Below are positions 22,679 to 64,000 of a stretch of 64,000 bases of DNA, piece after piece (the first letter of the stretch is position 1; each line of letters starts with the position of its first letter). The stretch covers positions 248,001 through 312,000 of the forward strand of contig NZ_WNIJ01000001.1 of the NCBI RefSeq assembly GCF_009725755.1, written 5' to 3'. The translations under genes and the position numbers were made by a program. Source of the stretch: Bombella sp. ESL0385. GTDB taxonomy: Bacteria; Pseudomonadota; Alphaproteobacteria; Acetobacterales; Acetobacteraceae. The notes beneath the pieces are model-generated. The model had not been told where the DNA came from, ran no database searches, and saw only the letters and a program-made list of their open reading frames with translations.

Positions 22679-23122
22679 ATGTTTAAGTTTGCAGGTGGGG
22701 CTTTGGCCCTGTTTATGGCAACAGCCCTGTCCGCCACAGCGGCGACAGTCGATGTTAAAATGCTGACCCATGGCAGCGATGGTGCTTATGCTTTCGAGCC
22801 GGGGGTTGTACGTATTCATTCTGGTGATAGCGTGCGTTTTATCCCTACCGATAGAGGGCATAATGTGCAGTCCATCCCGGGGATGATCCCTGAGGGAGCG
22901 CAGTCCTTTAGCGTGCCCTTTAGCCAAGAGCGGACAATTAAGTTCACGACACCGGGCGTGTATGGTTATAAATGCCTACCGCATTATTCTTTTGGCATGG
23001 TTGGGCTTGTTGTGGTGGATAATGCTAATAACGAGGCCCAAGCGCGTAAAGCCCCGATGTATGGCAAGGCGAAAGACCGTTTTGAGCAGCTTTTCCAGCA
23101 AGTGGATAACGCTAGCAAGTAA
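22679..23122 (+). CDS. Pseudoazurin (blue copper protein)
   Basis: Small periplasmic type 1 copper electron carrier. The 147-residue precursor has a signal peptide (about 1-20, ending ATA). The copper ligands are visible: His in RGHNV, then Cys, His and Met in YKCLPHYSFGM. The C-terminal tail is helical as in pseudoazurins. ATG 22679 has GTGGAGG 5 bases upstream. Pseudoazurins usually serve nitrite reductases or peroxidases; no denitrification gene is here, and the neighbour is the periplasmic katG. Confidence 0.93.
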   Translation: MFKFAGGALALFMATALSATAATVDVKMLTHGSDGAYAFEPGVVRIHSGDSVRFIPTDRGHNVQSIPGMIPEGAQSFSVPFSQERTIKFTTPGVYGYKCLPHYSFGMVGLVVVDNANNEAQARKAPMYGKAKDRFEQLFQQVDNASK

Positions 23123-23144
23123 GTAAAAATTGTTTATAACGATG

Positions 23145-23186
23145 CCGGCCTTATTCCTGATCTTTTCAGGAAAAGGCCGCTTTTTT
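23145..23186 (+). terminator. Terminator after pseudoazurin
   Basis: Extended stem GGCCTT plus TTCCTGA / TCAGGAA plus AAGGCC, followed by GCTTTTTT. Confidence 0.8.
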
Positions 23187-23209
23187 ATATACAACCTATG
23201 GAGAAAGCC

Positions 23210-23794
23210 ATGTCGGCGAAGGTGGAATTACAGGGCGAGCAACCGGCACGTTATGACGGTGTGGCAATGCTTTTGCATTGGGTGATTGCCCTGCTAATCT
23301 TTTTTTTGATAGCCCTTGGTTTATATATGGATCATGCCTCTGTGAGTGATCCAGTTGCGTTACATCAGCTGCATAAATCGGTTGGTATTATAACGATGCT
23401 GCTAATTGCAGTGCGGATTATATGGCGGTTGACGCATAAAGCCCCACCACTTCCGCAAGGTATGTCTGGTATTCAACGTGTAATGGCGGGCAGCGTTGAG
23501 GGGTTTTTGTATCTTTTTCAGATTCTCCTACCTGCAACAGGTTGGTTGATGGTCTCTGCCATGGCGATGCCGCTTGTATTGTTTGGTCTTGTGGCTTGGC
23601 CATTAATTCCCCTGCCGCAGAGTGTGATGGATAGTGGCTCCCTTGCAGAGATGATGCCAGGGCTGCATCAGTGGCTTGGGTGGATATTTGCTGGGTTTAT
23701 TGCATTGCATGTGCTGGCGGCGTTGTATCATCGGTTTATTAAGAAGGACCATATTGTAGAGCGTATGGTGCCGGGTCATCGTTCTGACCGCTGA
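23210..23794 (+). CDS. Cytochrome b561
   Basis: Inner-membrane di-heme b-type cytochrome, 194 residues, with four hydrophobic helices (about 20-42, 55-75, 95-125, 150-170). Heme-ligand histidines are likely in MLLHWVIA, LHQLHKS, GLHQWLGW and FIALHVLA. Family members oxidise quinol or superoxide and pass electrons across the membrane. ATG 23210 has GGAG 6 bases upstream; ATG 23198 lacks a ribosome site. Its place behind katG and pseudoazurin suggests it feeds electrons to the periplasm. Confidence 0.9.
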   Translation: MSAKVELQGEQPARYDGVAMLLHWVIALLIFFLIALGLYMDHASVSDPVALHQLHKSVGIITMLLIAVRIIWRLTHKAPPLPQGMSGIQRVMAGSVEGFLYLFQILLPATGWLMVSAMAMPLVLFGLVAWPLIPLPQSVMDSGSLAEMMPGLHQWLGWIFAGFIALHVLAALYHRFIKKDHIVERMVPGHRSDR

Positions 23795-34299: not shown

Positions 34300-34740
34300 T
34301 TATTGGCCCTCCATCATTTGCTCTAACCCTACAATGCCGAGTTTGGTCACACCAAGGCGCTGGGCATCGGCAAGGACATGAGCCACGGTTTTATAATTCG
34401 CAAGGCGGTCGGGCCGGATATGGATTTCGGGCTGGTCCCCCGTTGCAGGATGTACGGCCTCGTTAATATGCGCTTGGAGAGCATCCTCAGAGGGGATGGG
34501 CATGTCATTCCAGCTCAATGAATTGTCGTAATTAATGCTAATCGTGACAATTTGTGGCTGTATCGCCGAGGGAGGCGGGTTGCCTTGGGGGAGGTCAATC
34601 GCCACGGAATGAGTTTGGAGGGGGATGGTGATGATGAGCATGATGAGCAACACCAACATGACGTCAATCAACGGGGTGGTGTTGATATCGACAATGGCTT
34701 CATCTTCATGAGTGCTGCTAGAGCCAATACCCATAGCCAT
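34300..34740 (-). CDS. exbD: Biopolymer transporter ExbD/TolR (second copy)
   Basis: 146-residue inner-membrane subunit of the Ton motor. A short cytosolic start is followed by DINTTPLIDVMLVLLIMLII, where Asp of PLIDV carries protons, then a periplasmic domain. ATG 34740 is selected since GGGAGG lies 6 bases upstream; an upstream extension of 13 residues lacks support. Compared with the first ExbD, it has a longer N-terminus (SSSTHEDEA) and a different periplasmic part. Confidence 0.9.
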   Translation of the reverse strand: MAMGIGSSSTHEDEAIVDINTTPLIDVMLVLLIMLIITIPLQTHSVAIDLPQGNPPPSAIQPQIVTISINYDNSLSWNDMPIPSEDALQAHINEAVHPATGDQPEIHIRPDRLANYKTVAHVLADAQRLGVTKLGIVGLEQMMEGQ

Positions 34741-34830
34741 GATGGACCTCCCAAAATGTTCGTCCGGTTTGGCCCCCAAAGAGGGGGCAGAAAATGGGGC
34801 CTCTGTTACAGATTAGGTAAATAGAGGGGG

Positions 34831-35256
34831 TTAGTCGTGTGGTTGCTCGGTGATGAAGTCCACATGTTGGATGCCAGCCTCTTGGCACGCCGCTACAATC
34901 CGACCGATGGGCATATATTGGACAGACCCATCGCCACGGATTTGGATTTGCGGTTGAGGCTGCTGGCGTGCTGCCTCCATAAGGCGGTTGAGGAGGTCCT
35001 TATGCCCGGTGAGGGGGGTGGTGTTCCAGTAGCTTTGCCCATCAGCGGTGACAGCCAACACAATATTGCCCGGTTTGGTCTTGGTTGGCTGGTTGCGGTC
35101 CACCGGTAGCTGCACCTTAACCGTATGGGTCGCTACCGGGATGGTGATGAGGAAGATGATAAGCAGCACCAGCATGACATCAACAAGCGGCGTGGTGTTG
35201 ATAGCCGACACCACCTCGCCGTCATCATCTCCACCGTTACCGATGTTCATAGCCAT
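34831..35256 (-). CDS. exbD: Biopolymer transporter ExbD/TolR (first copy)
   Basis: 141-residue ExbD. The transmembrane segment NTTPLVDVMLVLLIIFLITI carries the proton-path Asp. The periplasmic domain shows IQIRGDGSVQY and PIGRIVAACQEAGI. It starts 5 bases after the exbB stop and is followed by the second exbD after 90 bases. Confidence 0.92.
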   Translation of the reverse strand: MAMNIGNGGDDDGEVVSAINTTPLVDVMLVLLIIFLITIPVATHTVKVQLPVDRNQPTKTKPGNIVLAVTADGQSYWNTTPLTGHKDLLNRLMEAARQQPQPQIQIRGDGSVQYMPIGRIVAACQEAGIQHVDFITEQPHD

Positions 35257-35261
35257 AATGA

Positions 35262-36416
35262 TTAGACTCGCGTGCTGGTGGTTGTCGTGGTGGGGCTGTC
35301 ATCCTTCACGGCTTCGCTCAGGCCATCTTCATGCCGATAGCCGCCGAGCAGAACGGAGTGAAGGTCAGAGCCGAAATTACGGACGCGATCCATCGCTCCT
35401 TTATTACGGCGCACCAAAAGGTTGTACCCCAACACAGCCGGGACAGCGGTAGCAAGGCCGATAGCCGTCATGATGAGGGATTCACCAACAGGACCAGCGA
35501 CTTTATCAATGGAGGCTTGCCCTGCAATGCCGATAGCTGTCAGAGCATGGTAAATACCCCAAACCGTACCAAAAAGCCCGATAAAGGGCGATGTGGAGCC
35601 AACCGTACCGAGGAAGGCGAGACCCGCTTGCAAACGTGTATTGATGGTCTCTAACGCGCGCTGGATGGACATGGCTGTCCAAGATTGCAGGTCGATTGAA
35701 TCCCGCATGGAGCCTTCATGATGCTGCGCGGCGATGATGCCTGTCTCCGCAATATAGCGGAAGGGCGAGGTGGGCTTGAGGGTTTTCGCCCCTTCTTGAA
35801 TGGTCTTTTGTGTCCAGAAGGTCCGGTCTGCCGCTTTGGAGGCACTAAAGAGACGGGATTGCTCAATGAACTTGCTGACCATGATAATCCATGTCCCTAA
35901 GGACATCAGAGCCATAATCAGCAGGACGCCACGGGCGATGATGTCCCCATTCTTCCACAAGGCTTTCAGCCCATAGGGATTCTCTTTTGAGGCATCATCA
36001 GCGGGTTTGTCGCTGACGGGGGTTGCTGTGACAGGGGCATTGCCCTCGGTCCCAGCGGGAGGCTGTGCGTCACTAGTCGCCCCTGCTGGCGGTTGAGCCG
36101 GAGCAGTTGTTGTAACGGGGGCTTGTGCGGGAGCTGTTGCCCCAGCGGGGGGCTGGGCTGGTGCGCTCGCCCCCGCGGGCGGTACAGCAGGGCTTGCCTC
36201 TTGAGCCAACGCCGCAGAGGAAAGCGGCATAGCTGCAAGGATTAAGGCCAAAGCCGTACCGTAGAATGGACGCGCTTTAGAGGCGGTATGTGTCAGGGGA
36301 AGGCGGAGCATTCTGGTCATGAATCTCATATCCTTGTCTATCAACGCAAGGTGCGTTTTCTTAACGGACCCTGTGGTCAGGGCAAATAAGCGGGTGATGG
36401 ATGAGGCGATACTCAT
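35262..36416 (-). CDS. exbB: ExbB/TolQ-type proton channel with Pro/Ala-rich periplasmic insert
   Basis: Proton-channel subunit of the Ton motor, 384 residues. ATG 36416 overlaps the tonB stop (ATGA). About 75 residues in, there is a signal-like segment ending LSSAALAQ, then a periplasmic stretch of imperfect repeats of the type PPAGATAPAQ (about 78-120). The MotA/TolQ/ExbB core follows with three helices and VGSTSPFIGLFGTVWG and IGLATAVPAVLGYN. A later start at ATG 36320 would place the signal nearer the N-terminus. The repeat insert is far longer than in E. coli ExbB. Confidence 0.88.
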   Translation of the reverse strand: MSIASSITRLFALTTGSVKKTHLALIDKDMRFMTRMLRLPLTHTASKARPFYGTALALILAAMPLSSAALAQEASPAVPPAGASAPAQPPAGATAPAQAPVTTTAPAQPPAGATSDAQPPAGTEGNAPVTATPVSDKPADDASKENPYGLKALWKNGDIIARGVLLIMALMSLGTWIIMVSKFIEQSRLFSASKAADRTFWTQKTIQEGAKTLKPTSPFRYIAETGIIAAQHHEGSMRDSIDLQSWTAMSIQRALETINTRLQAGLAFLGTVGSTSPFIGLFGTVWGIYHALTAIGIAGQASIDKVAGPVGESLIMTAIGLATAVPAVLGYNLLVRRNKGAMDRVRNFGSDLHSVLLGGYRHEDGLSEAVKDDSPTTTTTSTRV

Positions 36417-37105
36417 TCATCATCACCGAGGGTGAAGTCCACATGCAGGACGTGGTTATGTTCAACAATGGGTTGTCCGCCAGCCACAGCGGGTTGGTAG
36501 CGTACGGGGGAGCGTTCTAGGAAGTTGAGTGCGCTTTCGGCAAAATCATGCCCTCCTTTTACACTGAGCAACTTACAATTAGCGGGCTTGCCATTGGTGA
36601 GAATATCGCATGAAGCCGTCACAGAGCCCTCCCGGCTCTCCTCTTGGGCTTCTTCAGGATATTCTGGCCGCACATTATTAATCGGCACAGCCCCAGCAGC
36701 ATGGTCGCTATCGGAGGTGCTATCACCACTGCCACTACTGCTGCTGGACGCTGCCGAGGCCGATGTGGCAGCAGGCGCGACAGATGTAGGAGCCACTTTA
36801 GGTTGAGGCACTTTTTGCGCGCTATGATGGATAGGCGGCTTAGGCGGCGGTGGCAGCTTAATGCGCGGGGGAGGGATATAAGGTGGTGGTGGCTGCACCA
36901 TGACCGGATGAGGCGGCGGTGGCGGTGGTGGGGGAGGTGGTGCCTCTGCAATGATGACCGTTTGAATCGGCGGGTGTGCAGGCTCGGTCTTCTCTGCCTT
37001 ATTGAGCGTGAGGGCATAGACCACCAACCCAATGGCAAGAAAAGCCACAACAGCGGCAACGATATAGTCAATCGGCCTACGTTGTAAGGCAGCGTAGCTT
37101 TTCAT
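36413..37105 (-). CDS. tonB: TonB energy transducer
   Basis: 230-residue protein coupling the proton gradient to outer-membrane receptors. One N-terminal transmembrane helix (about 14-33), then a proline-rich span with ten prolines in a row (about 56-65) and further PPPP runs, a serine-rich linker (about 112-135), and the TonB C-terminal domain with RPEYPEEAQEESREGSVT. It leads the tonB-exbB-exbD-exbD-TPR operon. A perfect ATGCGA/TCGCAT palindrome lies about 120 bases upstream. Confidence 0.93.
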   Translation of the reverse strand: MKSYAALQRRPIDYIVAAVVAFLAIGLVVYALTLNKAEKTEPAHPPIQTVIIAEAPPPPPPPPPPHPVMVQPPPPYIPPPRIKLPPPPKPPIHHSAQKVPQPKVAPTSVAPAATSASAASSSSSGSGDSTSDSDHAAGAVPINNVRPEYPEEAQEESREGSVTASCDILTNGKPANCKLLSVKGGHDFAESALNFLERSPVRYQPAVAGGQPIVEHNHVLHVDFTLGDDE

Positions 37106-37223
37106 AGCAAAACTCTTTGCCCCTTTGTTATCTCAGCTCATACACCATGCCTACACGGGACCAGTCCCGTCTAGTTTCTGGTGTCAAGATGGCCTAAGCG
37201 GGGGCCTCTATGCAAGATATTAT

Positions 37224-37240
37224 ATGCGACTCTTTCGCAT
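37224..37240. promoter_or_regulatory. Palindromic operator upstream of tonB
   Basis: Perfect inverted repeat ATGCGA CTCTT TCGCAT. On the minus strand it abuts TATAAT (37223-37218 region), so a bound regulator would cover the tonB promoter. Iron or zinc control would make sense for tonB, but the motif does not clearly match a regulator I know. Confidence 0.5.
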
Positions 37241-37435
37241 AAGAGAGTGTGTATAACTAAAGAGAAAATTGTGCATAACTTATGAGATGGTTAATAAATG
37301 GCTATTTTTGAGGGTTTTTTGGTCTCTAAAATCACGTTTTTGAGATTGCTCTCTGTGTATAAGTTACACCAGAGCTGCCTATAAAAATGACAAGTTTTGC
37401 TCTTGATGGGGGAGGATCACCCCTTTGGTCGTGGT

Positions 37436-37464
37436 GGGATGCCCTCTTAAATGAAGGGCATCCC
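37436..37464 (-). terminator. Hairpin after prfB
   Basis: Stem GGGATGCCCT / AGGGCATCCC with a 9-base loop, 19 bases beyond the prfB stop. No T-run follows on the minus strand, so it may only stabilise the mRNA end. Confidence 0.5.
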
Positions 37465-37482
37465 ATTTAGGCGCGTACGCCG

Positions 37483-38614
37483 TTATTGTGCGGTTGCACT
37501 GGCTTCGGAGCGTGTTGCGCTTACACGTTGGGCGAGTGACGCGGCCATGAACTCATCTAAATCACCATCAAGAACGGCATCGGGGTTGCCTTTCTCTATG
37601 TTCGTCCGCAAGTCCTTGACCAGCTGATAAGGTGCGAGAACGTAGGAGCGAATTTGGTGTCCCCAACCAATATCCGTCTTAGCTGCTTCAGCGGCGGAGG
37701 CTTCAGCCTCCCGCTTTTGCAGCTCAGTTTCGTAAAGGCGGGCACGCAGCATCTCCATCGCAGTGGCACGGTTGCGGTGCTGGGAGCGGTCTGTCTGGCA
37801 GGCCACAACAATGCCGGTGGGGATGTGCGTAATACGGATAGCCGAATCCGTTTTATTCACATGCTGGCCCCCCGCACCAGAAGCACGGAATGTATCGACT
37901 CGGAGGTCAGAATCGAGGACTTCAATCTCAATCGAATCATCCACAACGGGGGAGATATAGATGGAGGCGAAGGAGGTCTGACGGCGTGCAGCAGCGTCAA
38001 AGGGGGAGATGCGGACAAGCCGATGTACCCCGGCTTCGGTTTTCAGCCAGCCATACGCATTGGGGCCGCTTACGAGAATCGTAGCCGATTTTAGCCCCGC
38101 TTGCTCGCCTGCGCTGCTTTCCATCAGCGTGACTTTATAGCCATGTTGCTCGGCCCAACGTGTGTACATGCGCAGCAGCATCTCGGCCCAGTCTTGCGCC
38201 TCGGTCCCTCCCGCGCCGGAATTGACCTCAAGGTAACAGTCATTCCCATCGGCCTCACCAGAGAGAAGGCTCTCCGTCTCACGCTGTTGGGCTTGGGCGG
38301 CTAAGGCACGCAGAGTGGTCAGGCCATCTTGGATGACAGCCTCGTCATTCTCCATCTCGGCAAGTTCGACAAGGTCGAGCGTGTCTTGCACTTCAGTCTC
38401 TAAGGCCTCGACCCCTTCAATCTGATTAGCGAGCATGGTGCGCTCGCGCATCATTTTTTGGGCAGCGTCTGGATTATTCCAAAGCTCTGGGTCCTCAGCG
38501 AGGTGGTTTAGCTCAGCAAGGCGTGTTTTGGCGGCATCCCAGTCAAAGATGCCTCCTCAGCAGTGCAACAGACTGCTTGATTTGCTCGGAGAGGGCTTCG
38601 GTCTCAGCCGACAT
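37483..38614 (-). CDS. prfB: Peptide chain release factor 2, with programmed +1 frameshift
   Basis: Terminates translation at UGA and UAA. The 376-residue product is made from two frames. ATG 38614 opens 23 codons that end CTT TGA C; shifting +1 at CTT (38548-38546) continues GAC TGG GAT into the main frame. AGGAGG (38557-38552) sits one codon before CTT, the usual internal Shine-Dalgarno that drives the shift, and the stop is UGA, which the protein itself reads. The main frame has the SPF anticodon-like motif (RISPFDAA) and the catalytic GGQ ([12 protein letters not shown]). Confidence 0.96.
38542..38557 (-). promoter_or_regulatory. prfB autoregulatory frameshift site
   Basis: On the minus strand AGGAGG CAT CTT TGA C. 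It has the same architecture as the E. coli site (AGGGGG TAT CTT TGA C): Shine-Dalgarno-like hexamer, one codon, slippery CTT, in-frame UGA followed by C. Low RF2 slows termination and raises the shift. Confidence 0.95.
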
Positions 38615-61922: not shown

Positions 61923-62059
61923 TTTCTTTTAGGGAGGGGCAGAAGTGGCACGGCCCTTAGCACGACATATGCAGAAAAAAGAACTCTCCCATGAGGGCAG
62001 GCCCCCTTATTCTTTATGATGAGGGTGTTATGTTTACCAAATGTCAGTATTTTTCTGAC

Positions 62060-62086
62060 GGAACTATAAGATTCAATCTGTCTATC
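62060..62086 (+). promoter_or_regulatory. Possible ECF-sigma promoter of the small membrane protein
   Basis: GGAAC (62060-62064), 16-base spacer, TCTATC (62081-62086). GGAAC is the usual -35 of extracytoplasmic-function sigma factors; the -10 is less typical. A GTCAG/CTGAC hairpin lies just upstream. Confidence 0.35.
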
Positions 62087-62134
62087 AGCTCCTTTTAAGA
62101 GAGGGGCGGAGCAGTGTTGAAGGAGGGGAAACCC

Positions 62135-62401
62135 ATGGCAGACGCTCTTAATGTCGATGCGCTTAAAACAAAAGCAGAGCAGACCCTTAACAAGGCTGGG
62201 AATGCTGTTGATACAGACGCGCTAAAAGCTAAAGCACATGAGCAAGCACGTCAGGCACAGCATGCTTTTAATGAGCTGAATAACGAGTTGAAGCAGCCTA
62301 AAGGCCGTTGCCAATGTGTTGGCCATACGCTGCTTTGGGGCGGTATTATCGTTGCTGCTCTAGCAGGCCTTTGCGCCATCGGCCGCTGGCTGAAGAAGTA
62401 A
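62135..62401 (+). CDS. Small helical membrane-anchored protein
   Basis: 88 residues. Two similar charged helical segments (NVDALKTKAEQ and DTDALKAKAHEQ) are followed by a Gly/Cys-containing turn (GRCQCVGH) and a C-terminal transmembrane helix (about 66-82). It looks like short YtxH/DUF883-like envelope stress proteins, but I do not place it firmly. AGGAGGGG lies 6 bases before ATG 62135. Stands alone, ends in a strong terminator. Confidence 0.75.
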   Translation: MADALNVDALKTKAEQTLNKAGNAVDTDALKAKAHEQARQAQHAFNELNNELKQPKGRCQCVGHTLLWGGIIVAALAGLCAIGRWLKK

Positions 62402-62441
62402 GCTTATATCATCACGCTTTGTTATAGATAAAGCATGATGC

Positions 62442-62471
62442 CCCCGGCCTTCCTACAGGCCGGGGTTTTTT
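62442..62471 (+). terminator. Rho-independent terminator
   Basis: 9-bp stem CCCCGGCCT / AGGCCGGGG, loop TCCTAC, then six T. It also marks the boundary between normal and AT-rich sequence. Confidence 0.92.
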
Positions 62472-62478
62472 GTGGATG

Positions 62479-63999
62479 TTATGGCGTTTCATACTGAGGA
62501 TTCATCATCATATCATAGTGACTTTTGTGCCCCATTTCTTTGAAGATTCTTTCGAATATAGACAGGTACATTTTAACACCGTTTTTATTAGTATCGGCAT
62601 ATATACCATCCGGTATATTGTGCGAACCGTCATGAGCCCAATTTATAAGAGACGAACAGATTATTTTTTCATCAGGTGGGAATTTGTTAGGTAATTTGCC
62701 AAGGCTTGTATTGCCTATAAATGTAAAATAATATTCTAGTATCCTTCTGCATGTATTCTGAATAGCAATGGAATGTGCTTGCGGATTATGTTGGGCGTTA
62801 CGGATTTCATCCCATAATAAATTATAGGATGTCTTAATGGGGTTATGATCATGATATGATATTTCTGAGATATTGTTATGCTTCTTTATTACCCAAAATG
62901 TATGTTTCTTATCTTTAGAATTATGGGTTATTTCTTTGAAGAAGTATACGTTATGAGAAAGGAGAAAAAATTGTTTTATATTTTTTTTATTATATGAGTT
63001 TTTATTTTGAGTGTCTCTAATAATTTCTTTTATAATGGAACTAACTATGAATGAAATATTAAAATCCATACTTGATACGGGATCGTCGATAACGACGATT
63101 TTTTCTTGATTTATACCTTTCTCATTAGTGCTTCCCTCTAATAGATAATAAAAATACAGAAATGAGACAAAAGATTTTTCACCCTCACTTAGGGTATCAT
63201 AGGCTTTTTCTTTATTAGGGCGGACTATAGTATAGTCATTCGTTCCTTTAATGTTTTCTAGAAAAAAATTTGTGAATCCATACTCTTTCAAGAGGTCATT
63301 TATTTTTTTTATAGTTGGCTTGACACTAATAAGAGATTTTTCAAGACAATATTTTTCATCATTCTTTTCTTTAATTTTATGAGAAATAGATTTAAGGTTA
63401 TTGTTAATTTTATCGACTTCTTGAGAAAGATTTTCATATTCTGAAATATATTTTTCTATGGCTTCTTTGTTTTCTAAATGAAAAAGAGCCCATATTTCTT
63501 TTGTAAGACTTTCTCTGTATTTGTTTTTGTTATCAATTAAGCGATTATGTTCTTCTATAAGAGAATTTGAAGTCTTAATTTCATTAATTAGCTTCTCTAA
63601 AAGGTCTTTTGTAGGGCTTATACTTAAACTATTTTGTTTTGATTCTATTTCGCTATAGGATATAGTTTCACTTGGATTTTCAAATTTCTTATTTAAGACC
63701 CTATAATTATAATCAAGTCGTAGAACTAAACCATCTTTTATGGATAATATTGCCTCAGTTTTTTTTGCTATCTCAGGAATGTCATGTAATAATGCAAATT
63801 CATCTAATGTAATGTTTATAAAATTATTTATATTTTCTTGGAATTTTTTATATTCTTTTTTTATTAAATTTATTTTGCTGAGAGATTCATGGTAGGTTTT
63901 ATCGAATAATTTTCTTAATTTTATTTGTAGATCATGATCAATATGTTGTTGGCAGAAGGGACATTTATCTTTTGATTTGTCAAGGAATTTAAGCCCTTG
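62479..63999 (-). CDS. AAA_13-type ATPase, C-terminal part (RloC/PrrC-like defence family)
   Basis: The frame is open without a stop to the window edge, so at least 506 C-terminal residues are present and the N-terminus with Walker A is missing. From left in protein order: a zinc-hook CPFCQQ near residue 13 of the visible part, a long Lys/Glu/Asn-rich coiled coil (about 20-235), then ABC signature LSEGEKSFVSF, Walker B IVVIDDPVSSMD and the H-loop LLSHN. The C-terminus has RRILEYYF and WAHDGSHN. RloC and related SMC-like ATPases share this order. Codons are very AT-rich, unlike every other gene here, which suggests transfer. Confidence 0.82.
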   Translation of the reverse strand, partial: QGLKFLDKSKDKCPFCQQHIDHDLQIKLRKLFDKTYHESLSKINLIKKEYKKFQENINNFINITLDEFALLHDIPEIAKKTEAILSIKDGLVLRLDYNYRVLNKKFENPSETISYSEIESKQNSLSISPTKDLLEKLINEIKTSNSLIEEHNRLIDNKNKYRESLTKEIWALFHLENKEAIEKYISEYENLSQEVDKINNNLKSISHKIKEKNDEKYCLEKSLISVKPTIKKINDLLKEYGFTNFFLENIKGTNDYTIVRPNKEKAYDTLSEGEKSFVSFLYFYYLLEGSTNEKGINQEKIVVIDDPVSSMDFNISFIVSSIIKEIIRDTQNKNSYNKKNIKQFFLLSHNVYFFKEITHNSKDKKHTFWVIKKHNNISEISYHDHNPIKTSYNLLWDEIRNAQHNPQAHSIAIQNTCRRILEYYFTFIGNTSLGKLPNKFPPDEKIICSSLINWAHDGSHNIPDGIYADTNKNGVKMYLSIFERIFKEMGHKSHYDMMMNPQYETP

Positions 64000-64000
64000 A

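Follow-up and report, generated by a model that had tools for sequence, protein, structure and literature searches.

DnaA boxes upstream of tonB in Bombella: probably a switch for DnaA control of the operon and not the chromosome origin

We analysed a stretch of 64 kb (the window, C1:248001-312000) from the 1.9-Mb, 5-contig genome of Bombella sp. ESL0385, an acetic acid bacterium of the Acetobacteraceae that belongs to a group living with bees. Three DnaA boxes at C1:285 kb, between prfB and tonB, had initially been annotated as either oriC or a DnaA-controlled control region for tonB. The second alternative gained sequence support, with box–promoter distances kept in 11 of 11 genomes of the genus, and the boxes are probably not an origin but a switch that places the nutrient-uptake gene tonB under DnaA control. 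With a probability of about 0.6, they would form a regulatory module upstream of the tonB-exbB-exbD-exbD promoter, where DnaA would bind and stimulate transcription. The genus has probably put tonB under DnaA control, most likely in the form of activation, and the finding is reassigned from an origin to a promoter.

The box array and the tonB promoter region

Three exact TTATNCACA sites were found in the prfB–tonB gap (37106-37482, 377 bp), all on the minus strand and with an overall span of 115 bp: box 1 (TTATACACA, 37354..37362), box 2 (TTATGCACA, 37270..37278) and box 3 (TTATACACA, 37248..37256). Several claims of the initial annotation were reproduced here, namely the three same-strand exact boxes within 115 bases (starting at 37248, 37270 and 37354), the lack of ORFs in the 377-bp gap (none of at least 60 aa was found), the A/T-rich stretch (37240-37400, with 32.9% GC in comparison to 44.0% for the whole gap) and the GANTC site, of which there is one, GAGTC on the minus strand at 37228-37232. 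The claim that the clustering is beyond chance also held. The window contains 8 exact sites, whereas 100 dinucleotide shuffles gave a mean of 1.44 and a maximum of 4, and a first-order Markov model of the gap gave a mean of 0.015 sites, with three sites in none of 100,000 simulated gaps.

In the whole genome 57 exact sites were counted (24 + 33), and a reversed-pattern control gave 11 + 8. Inspection of these 57 boxes showed that three exact boxes come together within 150 bp nowhere but in the prfB–tonB array, and two exact boxes on the same strand with 0-30 nt between them occurred once genome-wide. When up to one mismatch was allowed, the gap had 3 boxes per 300 bp and was not the densest place in the window, since four such boxes lie inside 300 bp at about 22900-23300. 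On a larger scale, 13 of the 57 exact boxes are located within 110 kb (C1:186000-296200), which exceeds even spacing.

On the strand of the boxes, the prfB stop is followed by an inverted repeat, box 1, an AT-rich spacer, box 2 and box 3, and then by the GAGTC palindrome, TTGCAT, 17 nt, CCATCT, a leader dyad and tonB; all coordinates in this and the next paragraph refer to the minus strand. The upstream neighbour prfB (37483..38454) matched PCRF (7.4e-49) and RF-1 (4.4e-44). The inverted repeat 3' of its stop (37435..37465, perfect 11-bp arms) is terminator-like by position only, and it was not called in a terminator scan. The palindrome of 19 bp, TATGCGA-AAGAG-TCGCATA (37223..37241), has a core, TGCGA-N5-TCGCA, that occurs once in the own genome, and the GAGTC inside it (37228..37232) belongs to GANTC, the CcrM recognition motif. 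TTGCAT (37210..37215) is the predicted -35 element and CCATCT (37187..37192), 17 nt after it, the predicted -10-region hexamer. A generic sigma-70 scan found no promoter and did not recognise CCATCT, and this weak -10 counts against our reading.

Under the assumption that the transcript starts near 37180, 7 nt past the -10, the box centres would lie at about -72 (box 3), -94 (box 2) and -178 (box 1). Close to the expected start is a dyad of the ACGGGA-N4-TCCCGT type (37151..37174, arms 37151-37161 and 37164-37174). GGGA-N4-TCCC is conserved here, where the tonB leader begins, and may act either as an operator or as a hairpin in the mRNA; the lowest-energy fold of the G001 leader left the dyad unused. 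The genes downstream are tonB (36413..37105, TonB_C 1.3e-14), exbB (35262-36416, MotA_ExbB 2.2e-28), a first exbD (34831-35256, ExbD 4.7e-29) and a second exbD (34300-34779, ExbD 2.4e-24), after which comes a protein with weak TPR matches. Gene spacing suggests that tonB–exbB–exbD–exbD form one transcript.

Conservation within the genus and in relatives

tonB was found downstream of prfB in all 11 genus genomes, in which the identity of prfB to that of the window was 99-100% in two genomes, 94-95% in seven and 89% in one. As these genomes are related, the conserved distances do not represent 11 independent events. In an unforced alignment boxes 2 and 3 were placed 22 bp apart without an intervening gap in all 11 rows, and this spacing was fixed for the later counts of mismatches, columns and distances. 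At the fixed spacing, boxes 2 and 3 together had no mismatch in four genomes, one in six and three in G008. Box 3 was exact in 10 of the 11 genomes, with 2 mismatches in G008, and box 2 was exact in four and ATATCCACA in seven. The distance from box 3 to the CTTG of the -35 was 40 bp in 11/11 genomes (G000 and G007 have a second CTTG further along). Lengths outside this module varied, from 173 to 265 between the prfB stop and box 2 (11 genomes) and from 111 to 277 between CTTG and the tonB start (10 genomes with a placed tonB start). The spacers between the module elements have diverged with their distances kept, and boxes of conserved position at a promoter, itself predicted, are present in 11/11, as would be looked for in DnaA-regulated promoters.

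Without the N, the share of the commonest base was 95% for box 2 and 98% for box 3, and 55% for the 13-nt spacer (11 genomes). The N of box 3 was A in 3, C in 4 and G in 4 genomes, its commonest base thus reaching 36%, and this freedom together with the conservation of the box columns agrees with the DnaA code TTATNCACA. In box 2, by comparison, the N was nearly invariant (C 9, G 2), which counts against DnaA control as we propose it. So does the state of box 1, which was poor in 7/11 genomes and missing in one. It was exact in three (the window genome, G006 and G010), was present in seven as an AATTCACA form that has one or two mismatches and lies 85-86 bp ahead of box 2, and was absent at its expected place in G007; five genomes had 2 mismatches. 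The box 1–box 2 distance was 84 in three genomes, 85 in five and 86 in two, where in several genomes with other 2-mismatch 9-mers nearby box 1 was identified by alignment. The boxes had been described as perfect, which is right for 3 of the 11 genomes (this one, G006 and G010); the remaining genomes have mismatches in box 1 and, for the most part, in box 2 as well.

Between box 3 and the promoter, the palindrome core TGCGAAAGAGTCGCAT was identical in 9/11 genomes, with one change in G008 and loss in G007, and GAGTC just upstream of the -35 was kept in 10/11. The -35 was CTTGCAT in 10/11 genomes and CTTGACA in G007. Likewise, the leader GGGA-N4-TCCC was present in 10/11, and the G007 hairpin has altered bases. 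G007 carries boxes 2-3 together with a TTGACA -35, without box 1 and the palindrome, indicating that the boxes and the altered -35 are not strictly coupled.

A search of 397 family genomes with prfB gave 353 matches at E up to 1e-150, and the 19 best-matching loci from outside the genus were taken as the sister set. A predicted promoter of the form TTGAC[A/T]-17-(CCCA/TCCT) was detected in 18 of these 19 (CCCA in 16, TCCT in 2), the -10 prefixes CCCA and TCCT having been picked after inspection of the sister sequences. The -35 was TTGACA in 17/19 and TTGACT in 1/19, and L166 was without such a promoter. The CCATCT of the window sits at the same distance as the CCCAA(T/C) of the sister loci. 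Absence of the boxes from close relatives had been named as a check on the initial annotation: they were kept within the genus, but 19 of 19 sister-genus loci had no exact box, nor a pair within 2 mismatches, nor the palindrome; 8 of the 19 had no tonB match inside the locus. One single-mismatch box each was seen by eye in the same gap of L162 (TAATGCACA) and L163 (TAATACACA), which counts against our reading.

Exact pairs with 0-30 nt between the boxes occurred in 9 of 60 relatives, four of them from the own genus. Of the 397 family genomes, 12 had the arrangement TATNCACA-N14-TATNCACA, namely 10 of the 11 of the own genus (G008 was missed), G099 and G175, and in the G099 and G175 matches prfB, tonB and the other query genes were absent from the 3-kb locus. 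The region downstream of prfB was inspected in 16 of 80 named loci, and TATNCACA was not found within 600 bases downstream of prfB in Komagataeibacter, Gluconobacter and Acetobacter (L056-L058). The G099 match falls inside an array of 14 exact TTATCCACA boxes, with both orientations represented, that lies between Maf-like and HemE-like ORFs, named by eye (L160:1364-1632); this array is apparently the own oriC of that genus.

The genus seems to have retained an older promoter and modified it from TTGACA to TTGCAT in 10/11 genomes. Going by the G007 state and without a tree, boxes 2 and 3 would seem to be older than the palindrome and the changed -35. How DnaA gains targets could be followed along a natural series made up of sister genera whose promoter is plain, G007 with its two boxes, and ten genomes with a fuller module. 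A genus-specific rewiring can tentatively be proposed, with somewhat less than even chances: the replication initiator would have taken over the TonB-ExbBD promoter, with boxes 2-3 coming first and box 1 and the methylatable palindrome later as the -35 changed, and nutrient uptake through the outer membrane would follow the DnaA level or fork passage.

Position of the chromosome origin

A minimum of the GC skew at the boxes had been suggested as a check of the oriC reading. Every one of the 32 two-kb bins in the window had a positive skew, without a sign change, and the minimum was found instead near C1:55 kb. Skew was sampled in 20 stretches of 8 kb, plus six more on C2-C5. On C1 it was negative at 1-8 kb, positive in 13 stretches from 75 kb to 1.0 Mb and negative in the four from 1.075 Mb on, with a gradual sign change near 1.06 Mb that marks a broad maximum. 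Two stretches of C2 and the six more of C2-C5 were negative, in contigs whose orientation is not established. dnaA (C1:1047716-1049113, L002) is located near the broad skew maximum, at C1:1.048 Mb and roughly opposite the region described next, and is therefore no marker of the origin here.

As a by-product, a better oriC candidate for the genus was obtained at C1:55700-56250 (L182). Six one-mismatch boxes lie within 300 bp at about C1:55.85-56.2 kb, a higher count than anywhere else in the first 75 kb. This intergenic region, which has divergent boxes, was matched in 11/11 genus genomes, and each match had two TTGTACACA and one TTTTCCACA; an exact TTATNCACA was present in 1/11 of the matches and not in the region of the own genome. 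By eye, the region also has an AT-rich stretch. Downstream of it, at C1:62.7-68.2 kb, are MnmE, MnmG/GidA, RsmG/GidB, ParA- and ParB-family genes, the last two families at C1:66.5-68.2 kb, and rho was located by eye at C1:58 kb. One-mismatch parS-like sites were found near the skew minimum (C1:45.5, 48.2 and 65.9 kb) and at four further places (C1:113.8 kb, C1:326.4 kb, C3 and C4), making 7 in total as compared to 2 in a reversed control, and exact sites were not found. The tonB boxes lie 229 kb (12% of the genome) from this candidate, about 23% of the way from the skew minimum to the maximum. The corresponding separation on one contig is ~219 kb in G010 and ~223 kb in G006.

It is extremely improbable that the tonB boxes are the chromosome origin. 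They do share with origins a cluster of exact boxes beside an AT-rich stretch, and an exact TTATNCACA is missing in this genome from the candidate at C1:55.8 kb, but the skew does not change sign in the window, the boxes at 285 kb have no parAB or parS-like sites close by, and the skew minimum, parA/parB and parS-like sites are ~220-240 kb off, where a separate box-bearing region recurs in 11/11 genomes. On the grounds of skew, the positions of parAB and the parS-like sites, and the better candidate, oriC at the tonB boxes was rejected.

DnaA control and its alternatives

In the reading that we prefer, activation of tonB by DnaA, the protein would most likely bind boxes 2 and 3, and box 1 weakly, all in a single orientation. 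From this upstream position it would stimulate RNA polymerase at the promoter, in which the -35 TTGACA has become TTGCAT, and a second input may come, via some factor, from the palindrome with GAGTC that lies between box 3 and this element. That the distance to the promoter is kept speaks for an action on transcription, and the upstream boxes together with the changed -35 speak for activation. We infer DnaA binding, activation over repression and the position of the start from sequence. The supply of TonB would be tied to the DnaA level or the replication cycle; our guess is that uptake could in this way be matched to growth or gene dosage. The DnaA of the genome is a full-length match; at its C-terminus, a conventional DNA-binding part, it matches DnaA chains of solved structures and aligns at RDHTTV. 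A second, weak DnaA match in the genome has an Hda lid domain. The lack of an exact box near gcrA in the own genome counts against DnaA control of tonB. Neither DnaA control of tonB nor the oriC of this genus was the subject of a paper among the literature matches listed, which is not proof of absence.

According to an excerpt of PMC3193534, DnaA directly activates four promoters, hdaA, gcrA, ftsZ and mipZ, in the alphaproteobacterium Caulobacter. Promoters activated by DnaA are established in this bacterium, PMC8203912 being a further source. The tonB promoter is like those of PMC3193534 in belonging to an alphaproteobacterium, in having DnaA sites and in the activator role that is proposed here. 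In contrast to them, the target is a TonB energy-transducing operon, the module is confined to one genus among the genomes examined, and gcrA, a DnaA target in Caulobacter, has no exact box near it.

The array might alternatively regulate DnaA itself, by titration or a change of its nucleotide state, as a locus outside oriC similar to datA, DARS or a DnaA-box cluster, with the promoter being incidental. The tonB array is indeed a group of DnaA boxes outside oriC, the only exact triple within 150 bp in the genome and 229 kb from the oriC candidate (~219 kb in G010, ~223 kb in G006). It resembles E. coli datA, DARS1 and DARS2 as a non-coding box group away from oriC, the DARS core also having three boxes (excerpt of PMC4585315), and the Bacillus subtilis clusters in its location outside oriC (excerpt of PMC5295017). 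A locus of this kind would not need the fixed promoter distance, yet 40 bp are kept in 11/11 genomes; the poor conservation of box 1 also counts against this explanation. Compared with the E. coli loci as given in that excerpt of PMC4585315, a conserved box–promoter distance, a third box that is weak in most genus genomes and, apparently, the lack of a conserved IHF-like site set the array apart; compared with the six B. subtilis clusters in the excerpt of PMC5295017, so do its fixed distance to the promoter and its being one exact-box triple. For IHF, WATCAANNNNTTR was found within 1 mismatch in 1/11 spacers before box 2, although the IHF of this group may prefer another consensus. We regard this explanation as unlikely.

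Repression of the tonB promoter by DnaA, alone or with a palindrome factor, is quite unlikely: DnaA is capable of acting as a repressor (PMC8203912), but the boxes sit farther upstream than about -68, which is outside the core promoter, and the change in the -35 has led away from the common form, not towards it. Very unlikely is that the 9-mers are sites of some protein other than DnaA. Their assignment to DnaA is made from the sequence, which leaves room for such a protein, and against it stands the degeneracy of box 3, which matches TTATNCACA both at the N (A 3, C 4, G 4) and elsewhere (98%).

Candidates for the reader of the palindrome were also considered. A palindrome regulon, with a Fur-like box as one idea, was rejected with the exact core occurring once in the own genome and 2-mismatch counts that stayed at or below the reversed-pattern control in each of the 11 genus genomes. 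This search misses the G004 element, in which three outer bases differ, and the G007 element is lost. Several 2-mismatch sites were common to more than one genome, and there may be a degenerate palindrome regulon. One 2-mismatch match to the tonB palindrome is a perfect palindrome, TATGAGAAT-C-ATTCTCATA, at G001:C1:1158641-1158659 and G003:C7:12405-12423 (L207), which we take to resemble a metal-regulator box. GcrA/CcrM appears a poor candidate as well: GcrA is encoded in the genome, but motif and position fit poorly. Promoters of GcrA/CcrM have GANTC of the type YGAKTCK and a GcrA peak from -40 to +40 of the start, according to an excerpt of PMC7987155. AGAGTCG fails this motif at Y and the other strand, CGACTCT, at the first K, and the tonB GANTC lies at about -50 from the inferred start.

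Elsewhere in the window, GC went down to 33% in the last 2-kb bin (62000-64000). The ORF at 62479-63291 on the minus strand matched the C-terminal part of AAA_13, as well as PADLOC PDC-S06 (2.7e-108) and PrrC (2.3e-14), and is probably part of an acquired defence-type gene.
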